Positions 1,395 through 33,327 of a DNA stretch of 39,296 nt are shown here, piece after piece. The stretch spans positions 1 to 39,296 of the forward strand of contig WHSP01000023.1 of NCBI GenBank assembly GCA_009380025.1, written 5' to 3'. This DNA comes from Gemmatimonas sp. GTDB lineage: Bacteria; Gemmatimonadota; Gemmatimonadetes; Longimicrobiales; Longimicrobiaceae. The notes under the pieces are model-generated. The model did not search any database, was not told the DNA's origin, and was given only the letters and a program-made list of their open reading frames with translations. The position numbers and the translations under genes were made by a program. Each line of letters begins with the position of its first letter. The stretch's first letter is position 1.

Positions 1395-1472
1395 TGTCGC
1401 AGTGGCTGTGCCGTGCAGCCCCAGAGCTTCTTTGCGCCTTCCCCTCGAGACCGACCACGTTCACGTAGATCG

Positions 1473-1484
1473 AGGAGATCTCCT
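1473..1484 (+). promoter_or_regulatory. Perfect palindrome containing the RBS
   Basis: AGGAGATCTCCT at 1473-1484 is a perfect 12-bp palindrome that contains the Shine-Dalgarno AGGAG and ends on the base before the ATG at 1485. It fixes the start of the receptor gene. It could also act as a repressor site or a small RNA structure that limits ribosome access, but neither is shown. Confidence 0.55.
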
Positions 1485-4220
1485 ATGCCATTCAGACTCT
1501 TTCTGCACGGTTTGCTCGCGGTGCTGGCGGCCGCTGTGACCACGATCCCGGCCGCGGCTCAGTCCGGCACGGTCTCAGGCGTGGTTCGATCTGCGGAGAC
1601 CGGAGTGCCCTTGATTTCCGCTGTCGTGCAGCTGACGGGGCCCGACGGCGGGCGTTACGGTTCCACGCTCAGCAACCAGTCCGGGAGCTTCCGCATCTTC
1701 GACGTTCCCGTTGGCTCGTACGAGGTCACTGCGAGGACCACGGGCTACGAGGCCGGTCGTCTCGAGGTGACGGTGACGGCGGGCCAGGCTTCGGAAGCAG
1801 AATTCTCGCTCGTCCCGCGCGCAATCGATCTCGATCCGGTCGTCATATCGGCGTCTCGTCGGGAGGAGAGAGCGCTCGACGCGCCGGCCCGTGTCGAGGT
1901 CGTTGGTCCCGGACAGATTGCGGAACGACCGGCGGTTCAGCCGACGGACCACCTCCGGAGTCTAGCCGGCGTCGACATCGTGACGCAGGGGCTTCAATCG
2001 ACGAACGTCGTCGCACGTGGCTTCAACAACGCCTTCTCTGGAGCTCTCCTCACGCTCACCGACCACCGTATCGCCTCCGTTCCCTCGCTCCGGCTCAACG
2101 CGCTGCACCTCGTCCCGGCGACCAACGAGGACATCGAGCGGGTGGAAGTGGTTCTTGGGCCCGGGTCGGCGCTCTACGGCCCGAACACGGCCAATGGAGT
2201 GGCGCACATCTTCACGCGCTCCCCGCTGACCTATCAGGGGACGACGCTCGCCATGACCGGCGGCACGCGCGACGTTTTTCAGGGCTCGGGCCGCACCGCA
2301 TATCTGCTCAACGACAACTTCGGGTTCAAGCTCTCCGGGATGTACTTCCGAGGTGAGGAGTGGCCCTACACCGATCCTGCCGAGGTGAGTGCGCGTGAGG
2401 AAGCGGATCCCAGCGATCCATTCTACGACCGGATCGGAGTGCGGGACTTCGACGCGGAGCGGTGGTCCCTCGAGGGGCGCGCCGATTGGCGGATCACTCC
2501 GGACGCGACGGCGATCCTGTCGGCAGGGCGTAGCACGAATGTCCGCGGCCTCGAGCTCACTGGCCTGGGTACTTCGCAGGCGGACCAGTTCTCCTACACC
2601 TACGTTCAGGGGCGATTCAACAGCGGCGGCCTGTTCGCTCAAGCGTACGCCAACTTCTCCGACTCCGGCGACACCTTCCTCCTCAGGACCGGTGCGCCGA
2701 CGATCGACCACAGCAAGTTCTACGTCGGCCAGGTTCAGCACGCCGTCTCGCCGACCAACTGGCAGGACTTCACTTATGGGGTCGACTATCTGCACACTGT
2801 GCCGGAGACCGACGGCACGATCCACGGCCGATTCGAGGACGAGGACGACTACACGGAAATCGGCGCCTTCCTTCAGTCGGAAACTACCTTCAGCAATCGC
2901 TTCGACGTGATCCTCGCCGGCCGTGTCGACCGGCATTCCGTCATCGACAAAGCCGTCTTCTCCCCCCGCGCGGCGCTCGTTTTCCGGCCCGATGAGACCC
3001 AGTCTCTACGCTTCTCTTACAATCGTGCCTATTCCAATCCGGGATCCGTCCAGCTCTTCCTCGATCTCGAGGCAGGTCCGGCATCAGAAGCTCTCGGGCC
3101 GCTTGGCTACACGATTCGGGCCGAGGGGACAGGTCGAGACGGGATCAGCTTCCAGACGGATGACGGCCAGTTCGTGATGCGGTCGCCTTTCACCGCTGAC
3201 CGAACGGAGCTCCAGGCGATCAACGTCGAGAACCTCTGGGCGATGCAGCTCCTGGGCATCGCGGGAGCACTGGTGCAGCAGGGGGATTTCACCCGGGATC
3301 AGGCTGCCGCCTTTCTGCAGTTCATGACTCCGCAGGTGCCGACGGGTGCCGATATCTGGGGCATCAACCCCGTGACCGGCATGCCCGCTCCGTTCGTTCC
3401 TCCCCAGGACGTTCCGGGAATCCGGGAGTCGAATACCGCTACCTACGAGGTCGGCTACAACGGCATCCTGGGGGGTCGCCTCCAGCTTGCTGCCGACGTC
3501 TGGTACGCGCAGAAGAACGACTTCATCTCCCCGCTCATTCCGCAGGCGCCGCTGGTGCAGTTGAACCCGGCCGAGGTCATTGATCATTCGACTCCTTTGA
3601 TCGAGCAGGCGCTGATCGGAGGCGGCGTGCCGCCCGAAGCCGCGGGGCCTCTCGCGCAGGAGATCGCCGAGGGGCTTGCCTCGATTCCGGGCGGAGTCGT
3701 CTACCCGCCCGACATCCCTGGCGGCGCCGCCGACCTCGTCGTGAGTTATCGAAACTTCGGCGATATCAATCTCTGGGGCGGCGATATCTCGGCGACCGCT
3801 CTTCTCGGAGACTGGACGCTCGGGCTCTCCGGATCCCTCGTCAGCGACGACCACTTCACGACGGAAGGGCAGATCGTCACCCTGAACGCGCCCAAGCGGA
3901 AGGGGAGTGCTTGGTTGGGCTACAGGAACGAGGGGCTCGGATTCAATGGAGAGGCGCGGGTGAGACACCTCGGGGGGTTCCCCGTCAACTCCGGCGTCTA
4001 CATCGGGATCCTGTGCATCGAGCCAGAGGCCCAGAGCTCCGAAACATGTGTCGAGGCGAGCACTCTCGTCGACCTTACGCTCGGCTACCAGATCGGTCCG
4101 CTACCCGGTGCTTCACTTCAGTTGACGGTGCAGAACCTGTTCGACTCCGATTATCGAAGCTTCGTCGGGGTTCCCGACATCGGTCGTCTGGCGTTGTTGC
4201 GGCTGAAGTACGAATTCTGA
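1485..4220 (+). CDS. TonB-dependent outer-membrane receptor
   Basis: The 911-residue product begins with a classical signal peptide: a hydrophobic core, then an AAAQS-type cleavage site near residue 26. A CarboxypepD_reg-like beta-sandwich follows (about residues 28-115), then a plug domain (about 120-240, starting near DLDPVVISASRREE). The rest is a long beta-barrel ending in the aromatic C-terminal Phe (LKYEF) typical of outer-membrane barrels. Such receptors import siderophores, vitamins, glycans or peptides using TonB/ExbBD energy. The substrate cannot be read from sequence and no partner lipoprotein lies next to it. The start at 1485 is chosen because it has an AGGAG Shine-Dalgarno, a promoter at 1365-1394, and produces the signal peptide at the very N-terminus. 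Confidence 0.92.
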   Translation: MPFRLFLHGLLAVLAAAVTTIPAAAQSGTVSGVVRSAETGVPLISAVVQLTGPDGGRYGSTLSNQSGSFRIFDVPVGSYEVTARTTGYEAGRLEVTVTAGQASEAEFSLVPRAIDLDPVVISASRREERALDAPARVEVVGPGQIAERPAVQPTDHLRSLAGVDIVTQGLQSTNVVARGFNNAFSGALLTLTDHRIASVPSLRLNALHLVPATNEDIERVEVVLGPGSALYGPNTANGVAHIFTRSPLTYQGTTLAMTGGTRDVFQGSGRTAYLLNDNFGFKLSGMYFRGEEWPYTDPAEVSAREEADPSDPFYDRIGVRDFDAERWSLEGRADWRITPDATAILSAGRSTNVRGLELTGLGTSQADQFSYTYVQGRFNSGGLFAQAYANFSDSGDTFLLRTGAPTIDHSKFYVGQVQHAVSPTNWQDFTYGVDYLHTVPETDGTIHGRFEDEDDYTEIGAFLQSETTFSNRFDVILAGRVDRHSVIDKAVFSPRAALVFRPDETQSLRFSYNRAYSNPGSVQLFLDLEAGPASEALGPLGYTIRAEGTGRDGISFQTDDGQFVMRSPFTADRTELQAINVENLWAMQLLGIAGALVQQGDFTRDQAAAFLQFMTPQVPTGADIWGINPVTGMPAPFVPPQDVPGIRESNTATYEVGYNGILGGRLQLAADVWYAQKNDFISPLIPQAPLVQLNPAEVIDHSTPLIEQALIGGGVPPEAAGPLAQEIAEGLASIPGGVVYPPDIPGGAADLVVSYRNFGDINLWGGDISATALLGDWTLGLSGSLVSDDHFTTEGQIVTLNAPKRKGSAWLGYRNEGLGFNGEARVRHLGGFPVNSGVYIGILCIEPEAQSSETCVEASTLVDLTLGYQIGPLPGASLQLTVQNLFDSDYRSFVGVPDIGRLALLRLKYEF

Positions 4221-4309
4221 CAGGGCAGGTCACGCGGAGCCGCGAAGGGCGGGGGACGGACCGTCATTTACTCCGTGTCTTCGCGTCAGATTACGATGAT
4301 GGGTAGGCA

Positions 4310-4324
4310 CCCTCTCCGAGAGGG
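4310..4324 (+). repeat. Short hairpin between receptor gene and glyA
   Basis: CCCTCT at 4310-4315 and AGAGGG at 4319-4324 form a perfect 6-bp stem with a 3-base loop, about 90 bases after the receptor stop. No T-run follows, so it is a weak terminator at best. The rest of 4221-4452 shows nothing else I can support. Confidence 0.3.
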
Positions 4325-4452
4325 ATGTGCCGGGCGCCTTCAATTGTCGCCGCAGGGGCGCTAGCTTCGGACAGTCGACTCGACACCCGGTCCGCCTCGG
4401 GTTACCATTCGGCGCGTCACGGAACGATCGAGGTCTCCAGCTTTTGCGGATA

Positions 4453-5703
4453 ATGGAACCACTCAGCCGAACCGACCCCGAGATCCACCGTCTCCTCGCC
4501 GCGGAAGCCGAGCGGCAGGGGGACCAGTTGGAGATGATCGCCTCGGAGAACTTCGTTTCTTCCGCAGTGCTTCAGGCGATGGGCAGCGTGTTGACCAACA
4601 AGTACGCCGAAGGCTATCCGGGGCGCCGCTACTACGGCGGTTGCGAAGTCGTCGACGAGGTAGAGCGGCTGGCTCAGGATCGGCTGCTCCAGCTCTTCGG
4701 GGCGGACCATGCGAACGTTCAGCCACATTCCGGCGCTCAGGCCAACATGGCGACGTACTTTGCCCTGCTCGAGCCCGGCGACACGATCCTCGGAATGAAC
4801 CTGTCCGAGGGAGGCCACCTGACCCACGGCTCACCCGTCAACTTCAGCGGGCGTCTGTACAACGTCGTTCCGTACGGGGTGCGAGCGGAAGATCAGCGCA
4901 TCGACTACGAAGAGCTGGGGCGTCTAGCCCAGGAGCATCGTCCGAAGGTGATCATTGCCGGTGCGAGCGCCTACCCCCGGATGATCGACTTCGCAACCTT
5001 CCGCGAAATCGCCGATGGGGTCGGCGCGAGGCTCGTCGTCGACATGGCCCACATCGCCGGCCTCGTCGCGACCGGGCACCACCCGAGTCCGATTCCCTGG
5101 GCGCACGTCGTCACCTCGACCACCCACAAGACCCTTCGTGGGCCTCGCGGCGGCCTCATCCTCGCCACGGAAGAGTACGCCAAGCCTGTCGACAAGCAGA
5201 TCTTCCCTGGAATCCAGGGCGGGCCGCTCATGCACGTGATCGCGGGCAAGGCGGTCGCATTCCAGGAGGCGTTGCAACCGGAGTTCAAGGAGTACTCGGC
5301 CCAGGTGATCCGGAACGCTCAGGTCCTCGCGACGGGCCTGCTCGAACACGGGTTCGATCTGGTTTCGGGGGGGACCGACAATCACCTCCTGCTCGTTGAC
5401 CTTCGAAGCAAGGGCGTGACCGGGAAGGTCGCGGAGAAGGCACTCGAGAGGGCCGGGATCACGGTCAACAAGAATACGGTGCCCGGTGAGACCGAGTCGC
5501 CCTTCGTCACCTCCGGAATCCGGATCGGAACCCCGGCCCTTACGACCCGTGGGGTGGGGGAGGCGGAAATGTCCGAGATCGCTGGTCTGATCGATCGCGC
5601 GATCGTAGGACGGGAGGACGAATCGACCTTGGAGCGGATTCGGGGAGAGGTTGGCGAGATGTGCGGTCGCTTCCCTCTCTACCGCGAACTGGTCGGGGCC
5701 TGA
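4453..5703 (+). CDS. glyA: Serine hydroxymethyltransferase
   Basis: This 416-residue enzyme interconverts serine plus tetrahydrofolate with glycine plus 5,10-methylene-tetrahydrofolate, the main source of one-carbon units. It uses pyridoxal phosphate in the cytosol. Family landmarks include IASENF near residue 29, [16 protein letters not shown] near 48-63, the aspartate-histidine pair of VVDMAHIAG near 195-203, and the PLP lysine in TTHKTLRG at residue 226. The ATG at 4453 gives the usual bacterial N-terminus and length; in-frame codons further upstream would add unrelated residues. It heads a same-strand run with miaB, the LapA-like gene, comEC and fbp. Confidence 0.96.
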
Positions 5704-5807
5704 CACACTCTCCGCGGTTCGGCGAACCGCTCCGTTCGAATGGGGGTACCAGCGGACTCGCACGGGACATGCGCCAACTTCGCAGGTCCGAACCGGCGGG
5801 ACCGAAA

Positions 5808-7199
5808 ATGCAGAGTGCGGTGAGCAAGAAGGCCTTCATAGAAACCTACGGATGCCAGATGAACATCAGTGACACCGAGCTGATGCACGGCATCCTTGCG
5901 GAGGAGGGGTATACAGCGGCTGACCGCCCCGAGGACGCGGACGTGATCCTGGTGAATACCTGCGCGATCCGGGAACATGCGGAGCAGCGTGTCCGCGGAC
6001 GGGTGGGACAGCTTCAGCAGTACAGGAAAGGTCGACCTGATCTCGTGATCGGCATCACCGGATGCATGGCTCAACGACTCGGAGACGAGCTGCTGGGGCA
6101 GGTTGGAGGGATCGACCTGGTGATGGGTCCGGATTCCTATCGGAACGTTCCAAAGGCGCTGCGGAATCTTCGCGCACCAGCTCCGTCGGCCTTGCCGATC
6201 CTCGACTCGCGACCTTCCACGACCCCGTCCTCCCGCGGTCTCACGGTCCTTGATTTCGATCCGCACGAGAACTACGAGGGGATCGCTCCGCGGCGTACCT
6301 CCGATGTCTCCGCCTGGGTGCCGATCCAACGTGGGTGCAACTACCAATGCACCTACTGCATCGTACCCTACGTTCGCGGCGACGAGAAGAACCGTGATCC
6401 GGATCAGATTCTGGCGGAGGTTCGCAACCTCGCAGCTTCGGGTGTGCCCGAGGTGACCCTCCTGGGACAGACCGTCAACTCGTATCGGTCTGGGGACTGG
6501 GACTTCCCGACCCTGCTCCAGGCGGTCGCACGCGTTGACGGTATCCGACGCGTCCGCTTCACGTCCCCCCATCCGAACGACTTCACCCCCGACTTGGTGC
6601 GGGTGATGGGGGACGAGATAAACGTCTGCAAGCAGCTCCATCTCCCTGTTCAGTCGGGACACAATCGGACGCTGAGGCGAATGCTTCGCCGCTATACCGT
6701 CGAGGCGTATCTGGAGAAGATCGAAAGCGTTCGCGCTGCCATTCCCGAAATCGCGCTCTCGACCGACGTGATCGTCGCGTTCCCGGGAGAGACCGACGAG
6801 GAGTTCGAAGCGACCCTCGACCTCATGCGTCGGGTTCGCTTCGACGACGCCTTCCTCTACCGCTATTCGCTACGAGAGGGCACCCCGGCGACCCGACTCC
6901 CGGCCGATCAGTTCATCCCGGACGAAGTCGCCCAGGCTCGGCTCGAACGATTGATCGACCTACACCGGAAGATCCAGCTGGAGATCAATCGCGCTCAGGT
7001 CGGCGGCATCGCGGAGGTACTCGTCGAACGCAGTGCACGACGCGGCGGGCTGCAGGGTCGAACCGACGGGAACAAAGTCGTCGTGTTCGAAGGTCCGAGC
7101 GAACTAATTGGGACGTTCGTCGAGGTACGGCTCAGTTCGACTACCGGAGCCACGTTCACGGGCGAACTCCTGTCCGGTGCGGACCAGCGTGTCGCATGA
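5808..7199 (+). CDS. miaB: tRNA-2-methylthio-N6-dimethylallyladenosine synthase
   Basis: The 463-residue product is a methylthiotransferase of the radical-SAM family. It thiomethylates i6A at position 37 of tRNAs that read codons beginning with U. The N-terminal UPF0004 domain has three cysteines for an auxiliary Fe-S cluster, at residues 16 (YGCQMN), 52 (NTCAIRE) and 86 (GCMAQR). The radical-SAM triad is C177, C181 and C184 (CNYQCTYC). A TRAM-type RNA-binding domain forms the C-terminus. The sequence around the triad fits MiaB better than RimO or MtaB. An ATG at 5808 gives the expected N-terminus; GTG at 5820 is an alternative. It lies 104 bp after glyA on the same strand. Confidence 0.94.
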   Translation: MQSAVSKKAFIETYGCQMNISDTELMHGILAEEGYTAADRPEDADVILVNTCAIREHAEQRVRGRVGQLQQYRKGRPDLVIGITGCMAQRLGDELLGQVGGIDLVMGPDSYRNVPKALRNLRAPAPSALPILDSRPSTTPSSRGLTVLDFDPHENYEGIAPRRTSDVSAWVPIQRGCNYQCTYCIVPYVRGDEKNRDPDQILAEVRNLAASGVPEVTLLGQTVNSYRSGDWDFPTLLQAVARVDGIRRVRFTSPHPNDFTPDLVRVMGDEINVCKQLHLPVQSGHNRTLRRMLRRYTVEAYLEKIESVRAAIPEIALSTDVIVAFPGETDEEFEATLDLMRRVRFDDAFLYRYSLREGTPATRLPADQFIPDEVAQARLERLIDLHRKIQLEINRAQVGGIAEVLVERSARRGGLQGRTDGNKVVVFEGPSELIGTFVEVRLSSTTGATFTGELLSGADQRVA

Positions 7200-7218
7200 C
7201 GGGCTGGAGTCGGGTGGG

Positions 7219-7545
7219 GTGCGGCGAAGTCGGGTAGCGCGCCGGAAGCAGCCCGCCTGGGGTCGCTGGGTCGGTGTCGCGCTGCTGGTCATCGCCGCCG
7301 GATTCTTCTCGTTCCTCAATTCGGGAGAGCGGGTCACTCTGAACGTCGGAGTGGCAACGCTCTACCGGATCTCCCTCGTCGGTCTCGTCTTCATCGTCTT
7401 TCTCCTCGGTATGGTCGCGATGTTCCTCTTTGGAATACGACACGACCGGGAGATCAGGGACGTTCTCACGACGCGCGATCCATTGCCGCCCGACCGCCAC
7501 GCCCACTACGAGCCGTTCGATCTCCCACCCGATCCGCCTACGTGA
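7219..7545 (+). CDS. LapA-like (DUF1049) small membrane protein
   Basis: This protein of about 108 residues has a basic N-terminus and then two transmembrane helices. The first is about VALLVIAAGFFSFLNSG, the second is about LVGLVFIVFLLGMVAMFLFG. A charged cytoplasmic tail ends in a proline-rich stretch. The arrangement, with RVTLNVG between the helices, fits the lipopolysaccharide-assembly LapA/DUF1049 group. The start is uncertain: GTG at 7219 has GGAG 9 bases upstream, but in-frame GTGs at 7177 and 7189 are possible. Its stop overlaps the GTG of comEC by four bases (GTGA), so the two are translationally coupled. Confidence 0.7.
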   Translation: MRRSRVARRKQPAWGRWVGVALLVIAAGFFSFLNSGERVTLNVGVATLYRISLVGLVFIVFLLGMVAMFLFGIRHDREIRDVLTTRDPLPPDRHAHYEPFDLPPDPPT

Positions 7546-9884
7546 CTCATCTTCGGCGCCCTCTCGTGGCGGCCTTACTCTCCTACCTCGCCGGACTCCT
7601 CCCCACGCTCCGCTTTTCCCCGCCGCTCTCGGTCGCTCTCGGCGTTCTCCTGGCGGGCCTGGTCGCCGCCTTCCTGATCGGTCGAGCACCTCGCGGGGGA
7701 ACAGCCTCCTGGCCGATCCTACTGGCCTTCGGAGCCTGCGGGGCAAGCGTCGGCACCCTCGCGGCACGAGAGGTCGAACAGGATTGCCGCAGCCAATTCC
7801 GTGACGGTGAGCCGATCTCCGTGGTTGGCCTCCTCGGAGCGGCTCACCGAGCCTCGCAGGAGGGCGCGCCACCTCCCCTGCTCCCCTTGTTGCGGGCGCG
7901 CCATTCCGAGCGCCCGGGCTGTACCGGCGAGCTACGTATCCGTTTCCCCCCGGACCTGCCGCCGATTCCGGTCGGCGCCCGGATCGAGCTCGTCGGCGCC
8001 TGGCGAACGTTCGATATCGGTGCGGACCGGAGCCTTTGGCCGCGGGACCCACGCTTTCGCGGCTTCGTCCTCGTCGACTCTCTGACGGGGGGTGTACCTT
8101 CCGTATCGGCCGACAATCTGGCACTTCGTCTACGTGCGGGCGCCGATAGGCGATTGGAGCGTCTCTTTCCTCGACACGTCGACCTCGTCGAGGCGCTCGT
8201 CCTCGGCCGCCGCGAATACGTGGACCGAGAACTCCGTGACCGTTTCGCCCGGGCAGGTCTGTCGCATATCCTGGCCATCTCGGGGTTGCACGTCGGGCTC
8301 ATCGCCGCGACGATCCTGCTCATTGCCACTGTGCTCCGGCTCTCGCGGCGCCGGGCGATTACTGCCACACTCTGTGTCACCTGGGCCTACCTGTTGTTGA
8401 TCGGCGCCAGCGCATCTGCTCTGCGCGCCGGCGCCATGATCACCCTCGCCCTGGTCGCCGGTCTGCTACAGCGGCCCTCCGCAGCCGCCCCGATGGTCGC
8501 GGCCGCCGCCTTCCTCATCCTTGCGATTCGGCCCTTGGCCGTCCTGGACCCGGGCTTCCAACTGTCCTTCCTGGGCGTCCTCGGCATTCTCATGCTGCGG
8601 GCGCCTCTCCTCACCCTGGCTCCCGACCGGCTGACCCAGAGGGCGGCCGGCCGCGTGCTCCTCGACGCGTTGGCCGTAGGCCTCGCGGCCTTCCTCGTCA
8701 CGGCGCCGATCGTGGCTCACCACTTCGGTATTGTGGCTCCAATCTCCATTGTCGCTGGGATTCCAGCCGTGCCGTTGATGGGAATGGCGTTGATCGGTGC
8801 CCTCTCAGCCCTCGTCGTCGATCCCGTCGTGCCGCCGCTCGGCAACCTCCTCGCGGACGGGTCCGCGCTTTTCCTCGATCTCCTCGATTCGGTCGCCTCC
8901 CTTGCCGCGGCCGTTCCCTACGGGAACGCAACGGTCACGGGGCCGCCCTGGTGGAGCTGGTCCGTTGCTGCCGCGGTCGGTATCCTGGCCTGGCGACTTG
9001 CCCACTATGGGGGAGCCCGATTCCGTGCCGTCGTCGGAGGGGGGGCCGTCGCCCTCGTCCTCACGATTTGGCCGCTTGCCGTCCGAGCGGCGACGGACGG
9101 CTTTCAAATCCACTTCATCGACGTCGGCCAAGGCGACGCGATCGCCCTTCGGACACCCGGTGGTCGATGGGTGGTCTTCGATGCGGGGCCCGCTTCGAAC
9201 GGCTTCGACGCTGGCGAACGCACAGTCCTTCCGTTCCTACGCGAACGTGGGGCACGGAGGCTGGAGGCCCTCGTGCTCACCCACCCCGACCTCGACCACA
9301 TCGGCGGAGCCGCCGCGCTCCTCCGCTCCATCCCCATTCGTTTCGTATTCGAGCCCGGACTTCCGGTGGGGAAGGACGTCTACCTCGACGTCCTCCGGGG
9401 GATCGAGACGAGCGGGGCCCAGTGGAGGGCAGTCCGCTCTGGACGGGTGATGGAACTGGACGGAGTTCGTTTTGATTTCCTCTGGCCGGACTCACAAACA
9501 GTTGACGTTACAGAGGATGCGAACCAGATTAGCGCGGTAGCCCGCGTGACTTATGGGGAGTTCGCCATGCTCCTGACCGGAGATGCCGGTGTCGAGGTAG
9601 AGGAGATCCTGGTGCGGCGCCACGCTGATGCCCTGGATGTCGATGTGCTCAAGCTCGGCCACCACGGTAGTTCGACCTCTACCGCGGAATCGCTCCTCGC
9701 GGTGGCAACACCCGATCTGGCCGTCGTCTCCGCGGGTCGCCGGAATCGATACGGGCATCCGGCGCCGTCGGTCATCGAGCGCGTGAGCCGGAGCGGGATT
9801 GCGGTCGCGCGAACCGACCGCGAGGGTAGCGTTACCATTGACGTACGGCCGGGCGGCGTGGTGTGGTCGCGACCGCAGTGGTGA
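7542..9884 (+). CDS. comEC: ComEC/Rec2-type DNA uptake channel protein
   Basis: The 780-residue membrane protein has the three-part ComEC layout. There is an N-terminal DUF4131 region with two or three helices, a central Competence domain made of many transmembrane helices (about residues 220-500), and a C-terminal metallo-beta-lactamase-like domain (about 520-780). The last domain shows THPDLDHIGG, LTGDAG and LGHHGSS, the expected ligands of this fold. ComEC carries single-stranded DNA across the inner membrane during natural transformation, with the C-terminal domain as a presumed nuclease. The GTG start overlaps the previous stop. No other competence genes are nearby. Confidence 0.9.
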   Translation: MTHLRRPLVAALLSYLAGLLPTLRFSPPLSVALGVLLAGLVAAFLIGRAPRGGTASWPILLAFGACGASVGTLAAREVEQDCRSQFRDGEPISVVGLLGAAHRASQEGAPPPLLPLLRARHSERPGCTGELRIRFPPDLPPIPVGARIELVGAWRTFDIGADRSLWPRDPRFRGFVLVDSLTGGVPSVSADNLALRLRAGADRRLERLFPRHVDLVEALVLGRREYVDRELRDRFARAGLSHILAISGLHVGLIAATILLIATVLRLSRRRAITATLCVTWAYLLLIGASASALRAGAMITLALVAGLLQRPSAAAPMVAAAAFLILAIRPLAVLDPGFQLSFLGVLGILMLRAPLLTLAPDRLTQRAAGRVLLDALAVGLAAFLVTAPIVAHHFGIVAPISIVAGIPAVPLMGMALIGALSALVVDPVVPPLGNLLADGSALFLDLLDSVASLAAAVPYGNATVTGPPWWSWSVAAAVGILAWRLAHYGGARFRAVVGGGAVALVLTIWPLAVRAATDGFQIHFIDVGQGDAIALRTPGGRWVVFDAGPASNGFDAGERTVLPFLRERGARRLEALVLTHPDLDHIGGAAALLRSIPIRFVFEPGLPVGKDVYLDVLRGIETSGAQWRAVRSGRVMELDGVRFDFLWPDSQTVDVTEDANQISAVARVTYGEFAMLLTGDAGVEVEEILVRRHADALDVDVLKLGHHGSSTSTAESLLAVATPDLAVVSAGRRNRYGHPAPSVIERVSRSGIAVARTDREGSVTIDVRPGGVVWSRPQW

Positions 9885-28054: not shown

Positions 28055-28504
28055 TCACGGCCTGGCGTCGTAGTCGCCCAGCTGGAGCACGGTGAGGTTG
28101 GGAAGGCTCGGGAGCCGGCGATCGTTGGTGAGGAGGGATCGGCAACCGCGCGCGAGCCCCGCAGCCATCTGGATCGAATCAGGCGTTCGAACGCCGTGGG
28201 TGGCGCGGATCTGCGCTGCTGCCCGTATCAGCGTCAGGTCGATCAAGACCAGGTCCAAGCCCCGACTCCGGCTGAGTACAGCCTCATACCGTGCTGCCAG
28301 CGCCGAATCCCCAGCCCGATAAGGCACGACAAGAACCTCGAGTAGGGTGATCACAGAAGTCACGAGCTGCAGCTTCCCCTCGTCCGCCGCTGCAAACAGG
28401 GGCCGGATCAGTGGCAGAAAGCGCTCGTGTCGCTCCACCAGGTAGATCACGATCGCGGTATCAATCGCGACCGGCCCCGGCGGAACCTTTTCGATCAATC
28501 CCAC
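28055..28504 (-). CDS. PIN-domain toxin (VapC-like ribonuclease)
   Basis: The 149-residue protein has the four acidic residues of PIN-domain nucleases: Asp15 (AIDTAI), Glu56 (LLEVLV), Asp109 (TPDSIQMA) and Asp128 (TNDRRL). VapC-type toxins cleave tRNA or rRNA with Mg2+. The gene begins at GTG 28504, overlapping the end of the upstream antitoxin gene by ten bases, the normal order for such pairs. Its C-terminus runs into the mazF remnant. All catalytic residues are kept, so it is probably functional. Confidence 0.87.
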   Translation of the reverse strand: MGLIEKVPPGPVAIDTAIVIYLVERHERFLPLIRPLFAAADEGKLQLVTSVITLLEVLVVPYRAGDSALAARYEAVLSRSRGLDLVLIDLTLIRAAAQIRATHGVRTPDSIQMAAGLARGCRSLLTNDRRLPSLPNLTVLQLGDYDARP

Positions 28505-28722
28505 GAGCCGCGCTCGCGCTCCACGTGTTCAGCTGCGTTGATGCCGGTCCAGAGCTCCTCTCCAAGACCTTCGAGCTCCAAAACCGAATGACGGCCGTCC
28601 TCCACCGCCCGCTCCAGAATGTGAATTACTTCCTGGGCAAGGGAACGCCGCTGGCCACGCGCTCTCTCCTGGAGTTTCCGATAAACTGCCGTTGGAAAGT
28701 TCTTGATGTTGAGCGTTGCCAT
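28495..28722 (-). CDS. Ribbon-helix-helix antitoxin (FitA/VapB-like)
   Basis: The 75-residue protein starts MATLNIKNFPTAVYRKL, followed by an amphipathic helix with RRSLAQEVIHILERAVE. This is the Arc/FitA-type ribbon-helix-helix DNA-binding fold found in antitoxins. The acidic, tryptophan-containing C-terminal tail (ELWTGINAAEHVERERG) would bind and block the PIN toxin. AGGAGG lies a few bases before the ATG at 28722, inside a small hairpin. It overlaps the toxin gene, so the two are co-expressed and probably autoregulated. Confidence 0.85.
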   Translation of the reverse strand: MATLNIKNFPTAVYRKLQERARGQRRSLAQEVIHILERAVEDGRHSVLELEGLGEELWTGINAAEHVERERGSWD

Positions 28723-28864: not shown

Positions 28865-30949
28865 TCAGTCGGGCAATGCCAGGGCTGCCAGTCCGTCGTT
28901 CAGCTGGAGAATGATGTACTGTTTTCCGTCGTGCACCCAGCTCGACATGCCGTAGCTGCCCGCGAGCGGGGCTTCGACGGTTCCGATCCGCTCGCCGCTC
29001 TGCTTGTCGATAGCGAAGAGGACCGGGGTGTCGTCGGCGAGGCGACCGGTGGCGAGCAGTAGGCTCGGCGTTACCGTCATCGCGGCATGGCCGCCCCGCC
29101 CGCGGTTGACGTCAACGCCGTCGACCCCCTGGAGTAGCGGGTGGTTCCGGATTTCGTCCTGCGCCTCCTGAGGCGCCTCGCCGTTCGGAATCGTCCAGAG
29201 ATGCTCGCCGGTATTCACGTCGATCGCGACGATGCGCCCGTCGGGACCCTTCCAGAGCGGCAGACCGTCGAGGGTGACGGGAGGGCCGGACCTGACCGAG
29301 GTGGCCACGGCAACCCAGTCGGCGACGGTCGACCCGGCCTGTTCCGGACCCTCGCGGCTGGACTCGACCCCGGGCATCACCTGGAGGCGGAAGCACATGC
29401 TCTGCGAGGTGACGAAGACAATGCCGTTGACCGGGTCGCCTGCTGCGGGACCGGTGATGTTCGCGCCGCCCGCGCCGCCGGGGCAATTCCACGCCGGTTC
29501 TTCGTCGTCGGTGGTCGGCGGGTTGAACAGCGGGTTGAAGAGGTTGTTCTCCTCCGCGAGTTGGAGTGCGCGCTCGTAGATCTCAGGCGTGTAATCGATC
29601 AGGTGCTCGGGCTGTCGGCCCTGCAGGTCGAACGGCGCAGGCTTTGTGGGGAATGGCTGGGTCGGTGACAGCTTCTCGCCGGGTATCGTCGATTGCGGCA
29701 CCGGCAGTTCCTCGACCGGCCAGATCGGTTCACCCGTCTCACGGTCGAGCGCGTAGAGGAATCCCTGCTTCGTGGCCTGGAAGATTCCCTTGATCTCCCG
29801 GCCGTCCACCGTCACGTCCATCAGGATAGGCGCGGTCGGCGTGTCATAGTTCCAGACGTCATGGTGGACCATCTGGAAATGCCACACCTTTTCGCCGGTC
29901 TCGGCGTTCAGGGCGATCAGGCTCGTGCCGTAGAGGTTGTCGCCGGGACGGTGGCCGCCGTAGTAGTCGATCGTCGCCGGGTTCGTCGGGATATAGACGA
30001 GGCCGAGCTCGGGATCGGCGGACATCGGCGCCCACGACGACACGTCGCCCGTCCACTCCCAGGCGTCGTCCTCCCAAGTTTCGTGGTCTTCCTCACCCGG
30101 CCTTGGGATGACGTTGAACTTCCACTTCAGCTGTCCGTTGCGCGCGTCGTAGGCGAGGATGTCGCCCGGCACGTTCTCGATGCGCGTCTGGAGGTACCCC
30201 TGCTCCGCGGAGTTACCGACGACCACGACATCGTTCACCACGATCGGCGGCGAGGAGGTCGTGACATAGCCTAGCTCCTGCGGGATGCCCTGGTTGGGGT
30301 CGTACGGACCGCCATGCTCGAGCCAGGGACCCCAGTCGGCGACCAGGTCGGGGATCATGTCCACCACGCCCGTCTCCGAAAAGCCGGGGAGCCCGACGGG
30401 CTTGCCCCAGTCCTCCAGTGGCTGGCCGGTCTCGGCGTCCAGCGCATGGAGGAAGAACGCGGGCGACGAGATGAAGACGACGTCGCGGCCGTCGACCTCT
30501 GCGTAGGCGACTCCCTTTCCGTAGCCGGCTCGCATCGAGTACTCCCAGCGGTGGGTCATCGGCTCCGTGTAACTCCACCGGATGCGTCCGTTCGACGGAT
30601 CCAGGCTCGCTACGCTACGCCGATCGCCGGCAACCGTAATCAACTTCCCATCCACGTAGCTCGGCGTCGCCCGTGCCGAGCTCGGGCCGAAGCTGCCCGC
30701 GTCCCACTCCCAGACGACTTCCAGGTCCTCGAAGTTCGACGCGTTGATCTGATCCGCCGGAGTGTAGCGGGTGTGCCAGGCGTCGCCGCCGAGGTACGTC
30801 CAGCTGCCGCCTTCGACCCCGGGGCCCTGGGCGGCGATGCTGCTCGGGAACGCGACCGCCACCGTGAACATCACGAGCAGAGCGACCAGGAACACCGGGG
30901 ATTGACCCGGGATCCGGTCGCTTACGAGCGCACGTCTCTTCATCGTCAT
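28865..30949 (-). CDS. PQQ-dependent quinoprotein dehydrogenase
   Basis: The 694-residue protein has an N-terminal signal or anchor helix (VFLVALLVMFTVAVAFPSS, then IAAQ) followed by an eight-bladed propeller of quinoprotein type. Repeated W-docking-like units include TGEKVWHFQMVHHDVWNYD and KQGFLYALDRETGEPIWPVEE. The first units (WTYLGGDAWHTRYTPADQIN) are typical of membrane glucose/alcohol dehydrogenase-like proteins. It would oxidise a sugar or alcohol in the periplasm and pass electrons to quinone or cytochrome; the substrate is unknown. No cytochrome c domain is attached. An AAGGAG before 30949 selects this start over GTG at 30967. Confidence 0.88.
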   Translation of the reverse strand: MTMKRRALVSDRIPGQSPVFLVALLVMFTVAVAFPSSIAAQGPGVEGGSWTYLGGDAWHTRYTPADQINASNFEDLEVVWEWDAGSFGPSSARATPSYVDGKLITVAGDRRSVASLDPSNGRIRWSYTEPMTHRWEYSMRAGYGKGVAYAEVDGRDVVFISSPAFFLHALDAETGQPLEDWGKPVGLPGFSETGVVDMIPDLVADWGPWLEHGGPYDPNQGIPQELGYVTTSSPPIVVNDVVVVGNSAEQGYLQTRIENVPGDILAYDARNGQLKWKFNVIPRPGEEDHETWEDDAWEWTGDVSSWAPMSADPELGLVYIPTNPATIDYYGGHRPGDNLYGTSLIALNAETGEKVWHFQMVHHDVWNYDTPTAPILMDVTVDGREIKGIFQATKQGFLYALDRETGEPIWPVEELPVPQSTIPGEKLSPTQPFPTKPAPFDLQGRQPEHLIDYTPEIYERALQLAEENNLFNPLFNPPTTDDEEPAWNCPGGAGGANITGPAAGDPVNGIVFVTSQSMCFRLQVMPGVESSREGPEQAGSTVADWVAVATSVRSGPPVTLDGLPLWKGPDGRIVAIDVNTGEHLWTIPNGEAPQEAQDEIRNHPLLQGVDGVDVNRGRGGHAAMTVTPSLLLATGRLADDTPVLFAIDKQSGERIGTVEAPLAGSYGMSSWVHDGKQYIILQLNDGLAALALPD

Positions 30950-31537
30950 CGAACTCCTTCGTTTCACGAAATCTCACGGAGCGGCTGGCGCGGGCGGGGA
31001 GTCCTCCGGCGGAGGTTGCGGGTCCGCGCGCGGCCGCGACGGCTGAAGACGGAACCATAAAAAATGGGGCGTAAAGTACGATTTCGCAAGGCATTCACTC
31101 CATTTTCCAGCCGGCTGACGGGTCGTCGGGCGACCCGCTACCGATGAAACCAGCTGCCAGCTTTTCGGCCGCTTCCAGACCCGGACGCCGGGTGTAAGGC
31201 GGCCAGCGACCGGGTCGAGGAGATCACCATGTCATCGAGATGGATCCGGTACGGTACCGATACGCGTCTGAAGTTCCTGCCGCGACTCCCCTCACCTAGA
31301 CTGCCCCTCGTTTCCCGATCGGCCCCAACCGCTCGCGTTCCGGGCGACTTGGCGGCGTGCGTCGATCCTGTTGCCGTTGGGCCCGTGCGCTCCGCGTGGT
31401 TGGCCACCGGCCCGATGCAACAGTCTTCACGTGTGGGATTCGTAACGGTGCGGAGTTCCGGTCGGGTCATCACTCGCTGTCGAGACGCAGCACGCGGACC
31501 GATACGGATCCACTACTTCTTTACTCGAAGGTTTTGC
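30950..31537. other. Divergent intergenic region, palindrome-rich
   Basis: This 588-bp gap lies between two divergent genes. It holds a perfect palindrome CAGCCGGCTG (31108-31117), a hairpin GGGTCG/CGACCC (31120-31136) and an AT-rich patch (31064-31090) that may carry the quinoprotein promoter, though I cannot fix its elements. A frame starting at 31229 with a good GAGGAG leads in phase into the SusC/PhoD chimera. Its arginine/proline-rich translation does not look like a protein. Confidence 0.45.
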
Positions 31538-32350
31538 ATGAAACGAATCAGGAAGGCAAAGGGATGGATAGTTGCGGCGAGCCTGATTGCTGTCCTCGCG
31601 GTACCGGGGATGACGTGGGCGCAGGAGACAGGTCGAATCACAGGTACGGTCACGACCGACAATGGCAGGCCGCTTTCGGGAGCCATCGTCAATCTTGCCG
31701 ACCTCAACATCGGCGCCCTCACCGATTCGGAGGGCGGCTACACCCTCGACGCTGTTGCGGTGGGACCGCAGACCATCACCGTGCGCATGATCGGTTACGG
31801 GGAGGCATCGACTTCGGTCACGGTCGTCAGCGGACAGGCCGTGCCTGCCGACCTGCAGCTATCGGCCGTGGCGGTCGAGATGGAAGGTGTGGTTGTCGTC
31901 GGGTATGGGACGCAGACGAGAGGGGCGGTGACGAGCGCGGTTGGCAGCGTCGATGGCCAGGAACTGGAGACCGTACCGACGACGAATTTGTCGAACGCAA
32001 TCGGCGGCAAACTCACCGGGGTGATGTCGGTCAATTCGAGCGGAGAGCCAGGAGGTGACGGGGCCACGCTCCACATCCGCGGCAGCCATACGCTCAACGA
32101 CAACAGTCCCCTGATCACCTCGGGTGGCGACGGTACCCCGATGAGGGAGGATGGCGAACTGATCCTGGAGCACAACCCTCATATCCCCTACTACAATTCG
32201 CAGCGCGGTTATGTCCGTGCGACGCTGACGCCCGAGCAGTGGACGAGTGACTTCCGGATCGTGCCCTCCGTAGCGAGCGAGGGGAGCCCGATCCATACTG
32301 ACGCCTCGTTCGTGGTCGAAAACGGACGGCCGGGTGTGCAGCGGGCCTGA
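31538..32350 (+). pseudogene. SusC-type receptor N-terminus fused to PhoD C-terminus
   Basis: This in-frame 270-residue chimera joins two unrelated genes. Residues 1-192 are the start of a SusC/RagA TonB receptor: signal peptide (AVPGMTWAQ), CarboxypepD_reg domain, the VVVVGYGTQTRGAVTSAV motif, and the first half of the plug (LHIRG). From about residue 193 (near 32114) the sequence switches to the last 78 residues of a PhoD-type alkaline phosphatase (SGGDG, NPHIPYYNSQRGYVRATLTP, then the FVVENGRPGVQRA end). No barrel and no phosphatase active site remain. The precise deletion left the frame open, so a product could still be made and exported, but it is best read as a gene-fusion relic. Confidence 0.78.
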
Positions 32351-32487: not shown

Positions 32488-33327
32488 TCAGGCGGCTTCG
32501 GCCTTCCGTTCGCCGATGAATGCCAGAAGGTCGGCGTTCACCCTTTCCTTCAACGTCGTGCACATGCCATGTGGCGCGCCTTTGTAGACCTCTAGACGCG
32601 CGTTTTTCACTAGCTTGGCGGACTGCCGCGCGGAAGCTTCTATCGGCACGATCTGGTCATCGTCGCCGTGAAGGATCAGTGTCGGCACGTCGAACTTCTT
32701 CAGATCCTCCGTGAAGTCCGTCTCGGAAAACGCCTCGACGCAGAAGTACGAAGCCGGGAAACCAGCCATCATCGCCTGATGCCAGAACGCGGAGCGCACC
32801 GCCTCCGATACCTCAGCGCCTGGCCGGTTGTAGCCGTAGAAGAGGAGGCTCAGGTCCTTCCAGAACTGGGAACGGTTCGCGAGTACCCCGGTCCGGATCT
32901 CGTCGAATGTCTCTTTCGGCTGGCCCTCCGGATTCTTCTGCGTTTTCAACATGAGAGGCGGCACTGCGCCGATCAGCACGACTTTCGCAACACGCTGCGT
33001 GCCGTGCCGGCCAACGTAGCGCGTGACTTCGCCACCTCCCGTCGAGTGTCCGGCGAGAACGGCATTGCTCAGGTCCAACGCCTCGATGAGGGTGGCGAGG
33101 TCGTCGGCGTAGGTATCCATGTCGTTGCCGGCCCACGGCTGGCTCGAACGGCCGTGGCCACGCCGGTCATGAGCGATGCACCGATATCCGTGAGAAGCGA
33201 GAAAGAACATCTGGTCCTCGAATGCATCGCCGTTGAGTGGCCAGCCGTGGCTGAAGACTACGGGTGGCCCTGAGCCCCAGTCCTTGTAATAGATCTCCGC
33301 CCCGTCCTGGGTCGTGATTCTGGGCAT
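32488..33327 (-). CDS. Alpha/beta hydrolase, cofactor-free haloperoxidase type
   Basis: The 279-residue protein matches the non-haem chloroperoxidase/arylesterase group in length and layout. It has the oxyanion HGWPLNG near residue 27, the nucleophile Ser95 in AGHSTGGG, the acid in [10 protein letters not shown] (about Asp224), and the histidine at 253 in GAPHGMC. Such enzymes hydrolyse esters and can make peracids that halogenate in the test tube; the natural substrate is unknown. ATG at 33327 has AGGAG upstream. It stands alone between the chimera relic and the epimerase stubs. Confidence 0.9.

Follow-up and report, generated by a model that had tools for sequence, protein, structure and literature searches.

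The 270-residue open reading frame at positions 31538–32350 (+ strand) of a contig from Gemmatimonas sp. joins the start of a SusC/RagA receptor to the end of a PhoD phosphatase, and it is probably, at about 0.77, a scar left when a single in-frame deletion removed about 5.7 kb from a same-strand susC-susD-phoD operon. The window analysed is the entire contig C155 (39,296 nucleotides) of a 5.02 Mb draft genome, which is divided into 478 contigs and 97.2% complete. The frame is open from its start to its stop codon in the assembly, and the observation made in the first-pass annotation, an in-frame SusC/RagA-PhoD chimera, is confirmed: residues 1–192 belong to SusC and residues 193–270 to PhoD. 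In profile searches these two unrelated families together fill the frame end to end, and at such strength chance is ruled out for both matches.

The SusC half starts with a Sec-type signal peptide (residues 1–28, 31538–31621, +), recognised by inspection from KRIRK, a hydrophobic core and the TWA/QE boundary. It is followed by a carboxypeptidase-regulatory-like N-terminal extension domain (residues 34–120, 31637–31897, +; PF13715, CarbopepD_reg_2, E 3.6e-16) and by the first half of the SusC plug (residues 131–192, 31928–32113, +), which corresponds to positions 5–61 of 107 in PF07715 and is cut at NDNSPL. The Pfam Plug match itself extends over residues 131–194, that is, half of the domain. 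The SusC/RagA model TIGR04056 fits residues 34–193 at model positions 3–156 of 981 (E 2e-34), and a search of PDB sequences aligned this part to 8AA4 (E 2e-17). Like the SusC/RagA TonB-linked transporters (TIGR04056; solved examples are 8AA4, 5T3R, and 6SLI), the chimera harbors the signal peptide, the N-terminal extension domain, the Ton-box region (VVVVGYGTQ), and the first plug half; by contrast, it has neither the second plug half, nor the barrel, nor a SusD partner. With an incomplete plug, no barrel and 119 bits against the 368-bit cut-off of TIGR04056, it does not qualify as a SusC/RagA transporter. A second TonB-dependent receptor, with the same type of N-terminal domain, is encoded in the window at 1461–4220, and the genome contains 66 matches to the SusC model, with about 60 SusC hits on other contigs.

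The PhoD half (32114–32347, +) comprises the last 78 residues of the phosphatase down to its native end, VVENGRPGVQRA directly before the stop codon. NF058638 fits residues 193–269 at model positions 459–535 of 574 (E 3e-23), and among PDB sequences this part aligns to residues 409–486 only of 2YEQ, the PhoD alkaline phosphatase of Bacillus subtilis (E 9e-19). The separate look-up of the two halves thus bears out the assignment, the PDB sequences agreeing with the profiles on either side. Whereas the C-terminal 78 residues and the native stop are shared with PhoD, the whole segment preceding 2YEQ residue 409 is gone, active-site region included. Lost with it are the GDVH motif and the remaining conserved stretches of the metal site, which supply the metal ligands of PhoD. 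No catalytic metallophosphatase domain with metal ligands is left, and PF09423 reaches 14.6 bits where its cut-off is 27, so that the chimera is not a PhoD phosphatase either. The TIGR04056 match and the NF058638 match each cover only part of the model and score well short of the family cut-off, as expected of fragments.

The position of the junction follows from comparison with homologues of the two parents. PhoD homologues read EFVGTS-ITSGGDG at this point and homologues of the SusC subfamily NDNSPL-VVIDG, whereas the chimera reads NDNSPL-ITSGGDG; the join therefore lies between codons 192 and 193 (32113/32114), in agreement with the earlier placement near 32114 without loss of frame. The G at 32113 is shared by both parents, and the codon of Ile193 (ATC, 32114–32116, +) fits PhoD. 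Judged from homologues, the parents themselves being lost, microhomology at the join may amount to 1–4 bp, either this one G or at most GATC. With so few shared bases, both homologous recombination and assembler overlap explain the join poorly.

The arrangement expected of the parent is found in a relative. PhoD was searched for in 394 sampled genomes of the class, and 44 phoD neighbourhoods were read. The best PhoD match in this sample (G126:C1:3536442-3536675, 59% identity, E 5e-29) lies in G126, a genome from another family of the same class, and it ends in VVENGRPGAQKA before the stop codon where the chimera ends in VVENGRPGVQRA. At this locus (L074, G126:C1:3527000-3546999), susC (2873–6262), susD (6263–8071), and phoD (8072–9679) occupy one strand, and each stop codon is followed without a gap by the next open frame. 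The three genes suggested to be sought side by side are therefore present in the very genome that owns the closest PhoD. They are together there only: susC and susD adjoin phoD in 1 of the 44 neighbourhoods, and two others show a short match to the N-terminal domain and nothing more. In a tree of 68 PhoD C-termini, the PhoD half of the chimera is sister to the G126 PhoD (support 99/84), while beyond this pair the tree is poorly resolved because it rests on 78 columns. In a tree of SusC N-terminal halves, the SusC half groups with seven G126-like SusCs against 37 others (support 99/94, or 98/94 in a version with two long rows included), the group of eight comprising the chimera, the G126 SusC, and six others 57–64% identical to the chimera. 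Within this subfamily the chimera is basal and not sister to the G126 SusC, so that the G126 operon, the single one of its kind found, is related to the parent operon but is not identical with it.

Projected onto the G126 operon, the join skips positions 3755–9442 of the locus, 5688 bp (about 5.69 kb), a multiple of three. The multi-kilobase deletion claimed from the window alone is well supported by this geometry. By the same projection, the missing parts are the remaining 835 codons of SusC, the complete SusD, and 457 codons at the beginning of the PhoD frame. When these were assembled from G126 into a query of 1884 aa, the chimera's own genome returned SusC and SusD paralogues only, 22–51% identical, the value of 51% applying to 73 aa. 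Neither a PhoD start nor a barrel of the chimera's SusC subfamily was found in the 97.2%-complete draft by this query, and PF09423 has no match in the genome other than the chimera. The absence of both parents, first noted for the window, thus extends further: PhoD is missing from the whole assembly, as is the rest of the chimera's own SusC. The start of an upstream gene and the end of a downstream gene on one strand, an intact operon in a genome to which both halves are related, and a genome from which the deleted parts are missing are together what an operon remnant should present.

The parent would accordingly have been a same-strand susC-susD-phoD operon, a "Pus"-like phosphate-scavenging locus. 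The deletion would have taken SusC from the middle of its plug onwards, with the entire barrel, all of SusD, and the signal and catalytic domains of PhoD, fusing SusC codon 192 to the final 78 PhoD codons. In its sequence the remnant shows no visible decay. When a conserved position is defined as one shared by at least 80% of functional homologues, 18 of 19 are kept in the PhoD part and 28 of 30 in the SusC part, within the range of functional proteins, and the terminal branch of the chimera in the PhoD tree (0.38) is close to that of the functional G126 PhoD (0.36). The retention of nearly all conserved residues means either that the deletion is recent or that the product is still constrained; since the fusion occurs in no relative, a recent deletion is the simpler reading. 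A joint MAFFT alignment of the chimera with SusC and PhoD pieces was unusable, the plug being placed over the PhoD part.

Judged from the domains that are left, the product probably has the function of neither parent, that is, no transport and no phosphatase activity. The AlphaFold2 model has a mean pLDDT of 53.5 and is confident for residues 31–113 only, the N-terminal domain, with about 82–95 for residues 31–110. Residues 114–270 fall below 50, a value that is weak evidence for the PhoD part because the model was built on a SusC-only alignment and no alignment stood behind that part. If translated, the protein should be exported by its Sec signal peptide; it would consist of one small folded domain followed by a loose tail and would probably be degraded.

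Three other explanations of the frame have to be weighed against the deletion. That susC and phoD were unlinked and then joined by inversion, translocation, or transposition appears unlikely. It would fit the failure to see the undeleted site in relatives and the rarity of the linkage (1/44 neighbourhoods), yet the closest relative of the PhoD half is the very one that is linked, and the genome contains no reciprocal product, neither the front part of PhoD nor a barrel belonging to this SusC subfamily. An assembly artefact, in which assembly or binning of the metagenome brought together separate parts of an intact operon or of different genomes, is conceivable in a draft of 478 contigs but quite unlikely here. 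Both halves trace to one operon type with strand and frame kept at the join, the 1–4 bp at most that the parents share there fall far short of the overlap that an assembler works with, the interval that was lost does not turn up elsewhere in the 97.2%-complete assembly, and GC by codon position, close to that of neighbouring genes, is the same on either side. Loss by deletion is also the simplest account: a translocation calls for a second event, the loss of the reciprocal product, and after a misassembly the missing genes would be expected on some other contig. We therefore infer that the join was made by a deletion and, no decay being visible, that this deletion was recent.

A functional new gene, in which an exported N-terminal domain with the TonB-contact region and a PhoD tail would be under selection, for example as a TonB decoy or scaffold, is very unlikely. 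The intact frame, Shine-Dalgarno-like site, signal peptide, and N-terminal domain speak in its favour, as do the conserved residues and terminal branch length given above, which match those of functional homologues; a recent deletion, however, predicts the same signs, the chimera is found in none of the 99 relatives, and residues 114–270 are predicted without confidence (with no alignment for the PhoD part). More specifically, the deletion might have created an exported periplasmic SusC N-terminal domain with a Ton box and no pore, retained for an interaction with TonB or for a regulatory effect on one of the approximately 60 SusC systems of the genome, an idea that is hardly to be credited. 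The chimera is most probably a well-explained, ordinary deletion scar.

Its distribution was considered as well. A 270-residue architecture conserved widely enough to be a real family, an outcome allowed for at the start, was not encountered: no match spans both halves in the 99 relatives (0/99). Scanning GTDB r220 genome contigs and viral contigs with the chimera recovered no close relative, and among phage records the SusC-like matches were all weak and lay in faecal contigs without annotation. With no spanning match and no close relative among contigs, there is no sign of a conserved family. Upstream lies a divergent PQQ-dependent dehydrogenase gene (28865–30967, −), whose 38 matching places in the genome reveal a large paralogue expansion, and a 570-bp gap (30968–31537) separates it from the chimera; this gap probably preceded the susC operon before the deletion. 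Downstream, the next gene encodes a convergent alpha/beta hydrolase (32488–33327), so that no susD follows directly. Within the family, the dehydrogenase has a 61% match in G001 and the hydrolase a 65% match in G018, and the two genes are not adjacent in relatives; an undeleted or empty site was thus not found. Further upstream, the window carries a PIN-domain toxin and a FitA-like ribbon-helix-helix antitoxin of the FitAB/VapBC type in overlapping frames (28055–28722, −).

The start at 31538 is favoured over the in-frame upstream ATG at 31229 because a Shine-Dalgarno-like GAAGG (31527–31531, +) can be read directly 6 nt before the ATG. Initiation at 31229, which would give 373 aa, was dropped, as the signal peptide would then end up buried. 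A scan for sigma-70 promoters, including the 570-bp gap upstream of the chimera, and a search against Rfam yielded no match.

SusCD complexes tied to phosphatases are described from Flavobacterium, where they form the PusCD loci for phosphate utilisation (PMC8115612). The inferred parent operon, as seen in G126, likewise combines a phosphatase and a SusCD transporter, whereas the PusCD loci (PMC8115612) belong to Bacteroidetes and employ other enzymes, and the present window holds a remnant only. Titles and abstracts retrieved by a full-text search for SusC, SusD, and PhoD describe no susC-susD-phoD operon outside Bacteroidetes. From the scar it seems that this lineage formerly possessed a PusCD-like transporter-phosphatase operon and lost it. 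The scar also leads to G126, a member of a different family of the class, in which susC-susD-phoD is intact; this operon has the look of a Pus-like system for scavenging phosphate, and it stands outside the Bacteroidetes, the setting of the PusCD loci. As a gene the chimera is ordinary. Partial matches would label it "SusC" or "PhoD" when it can be neither.

Two further phoD loci were observed in the sampled class. In two genomes of the genus of G126 (L182 in G358 and L184 in G396), a stretch with a SusC-type N-terminal domain, itself a match of only 27–31%, is followed after about 2.6 kb by another phoD on the same strand; this is perhaps a second receptor-phosphatase pairing. At L026/L050 (G074:C4:202188-202412), the phoD match falls in an open frame of 182 aa away from the contig end, possibly another broken phoD.
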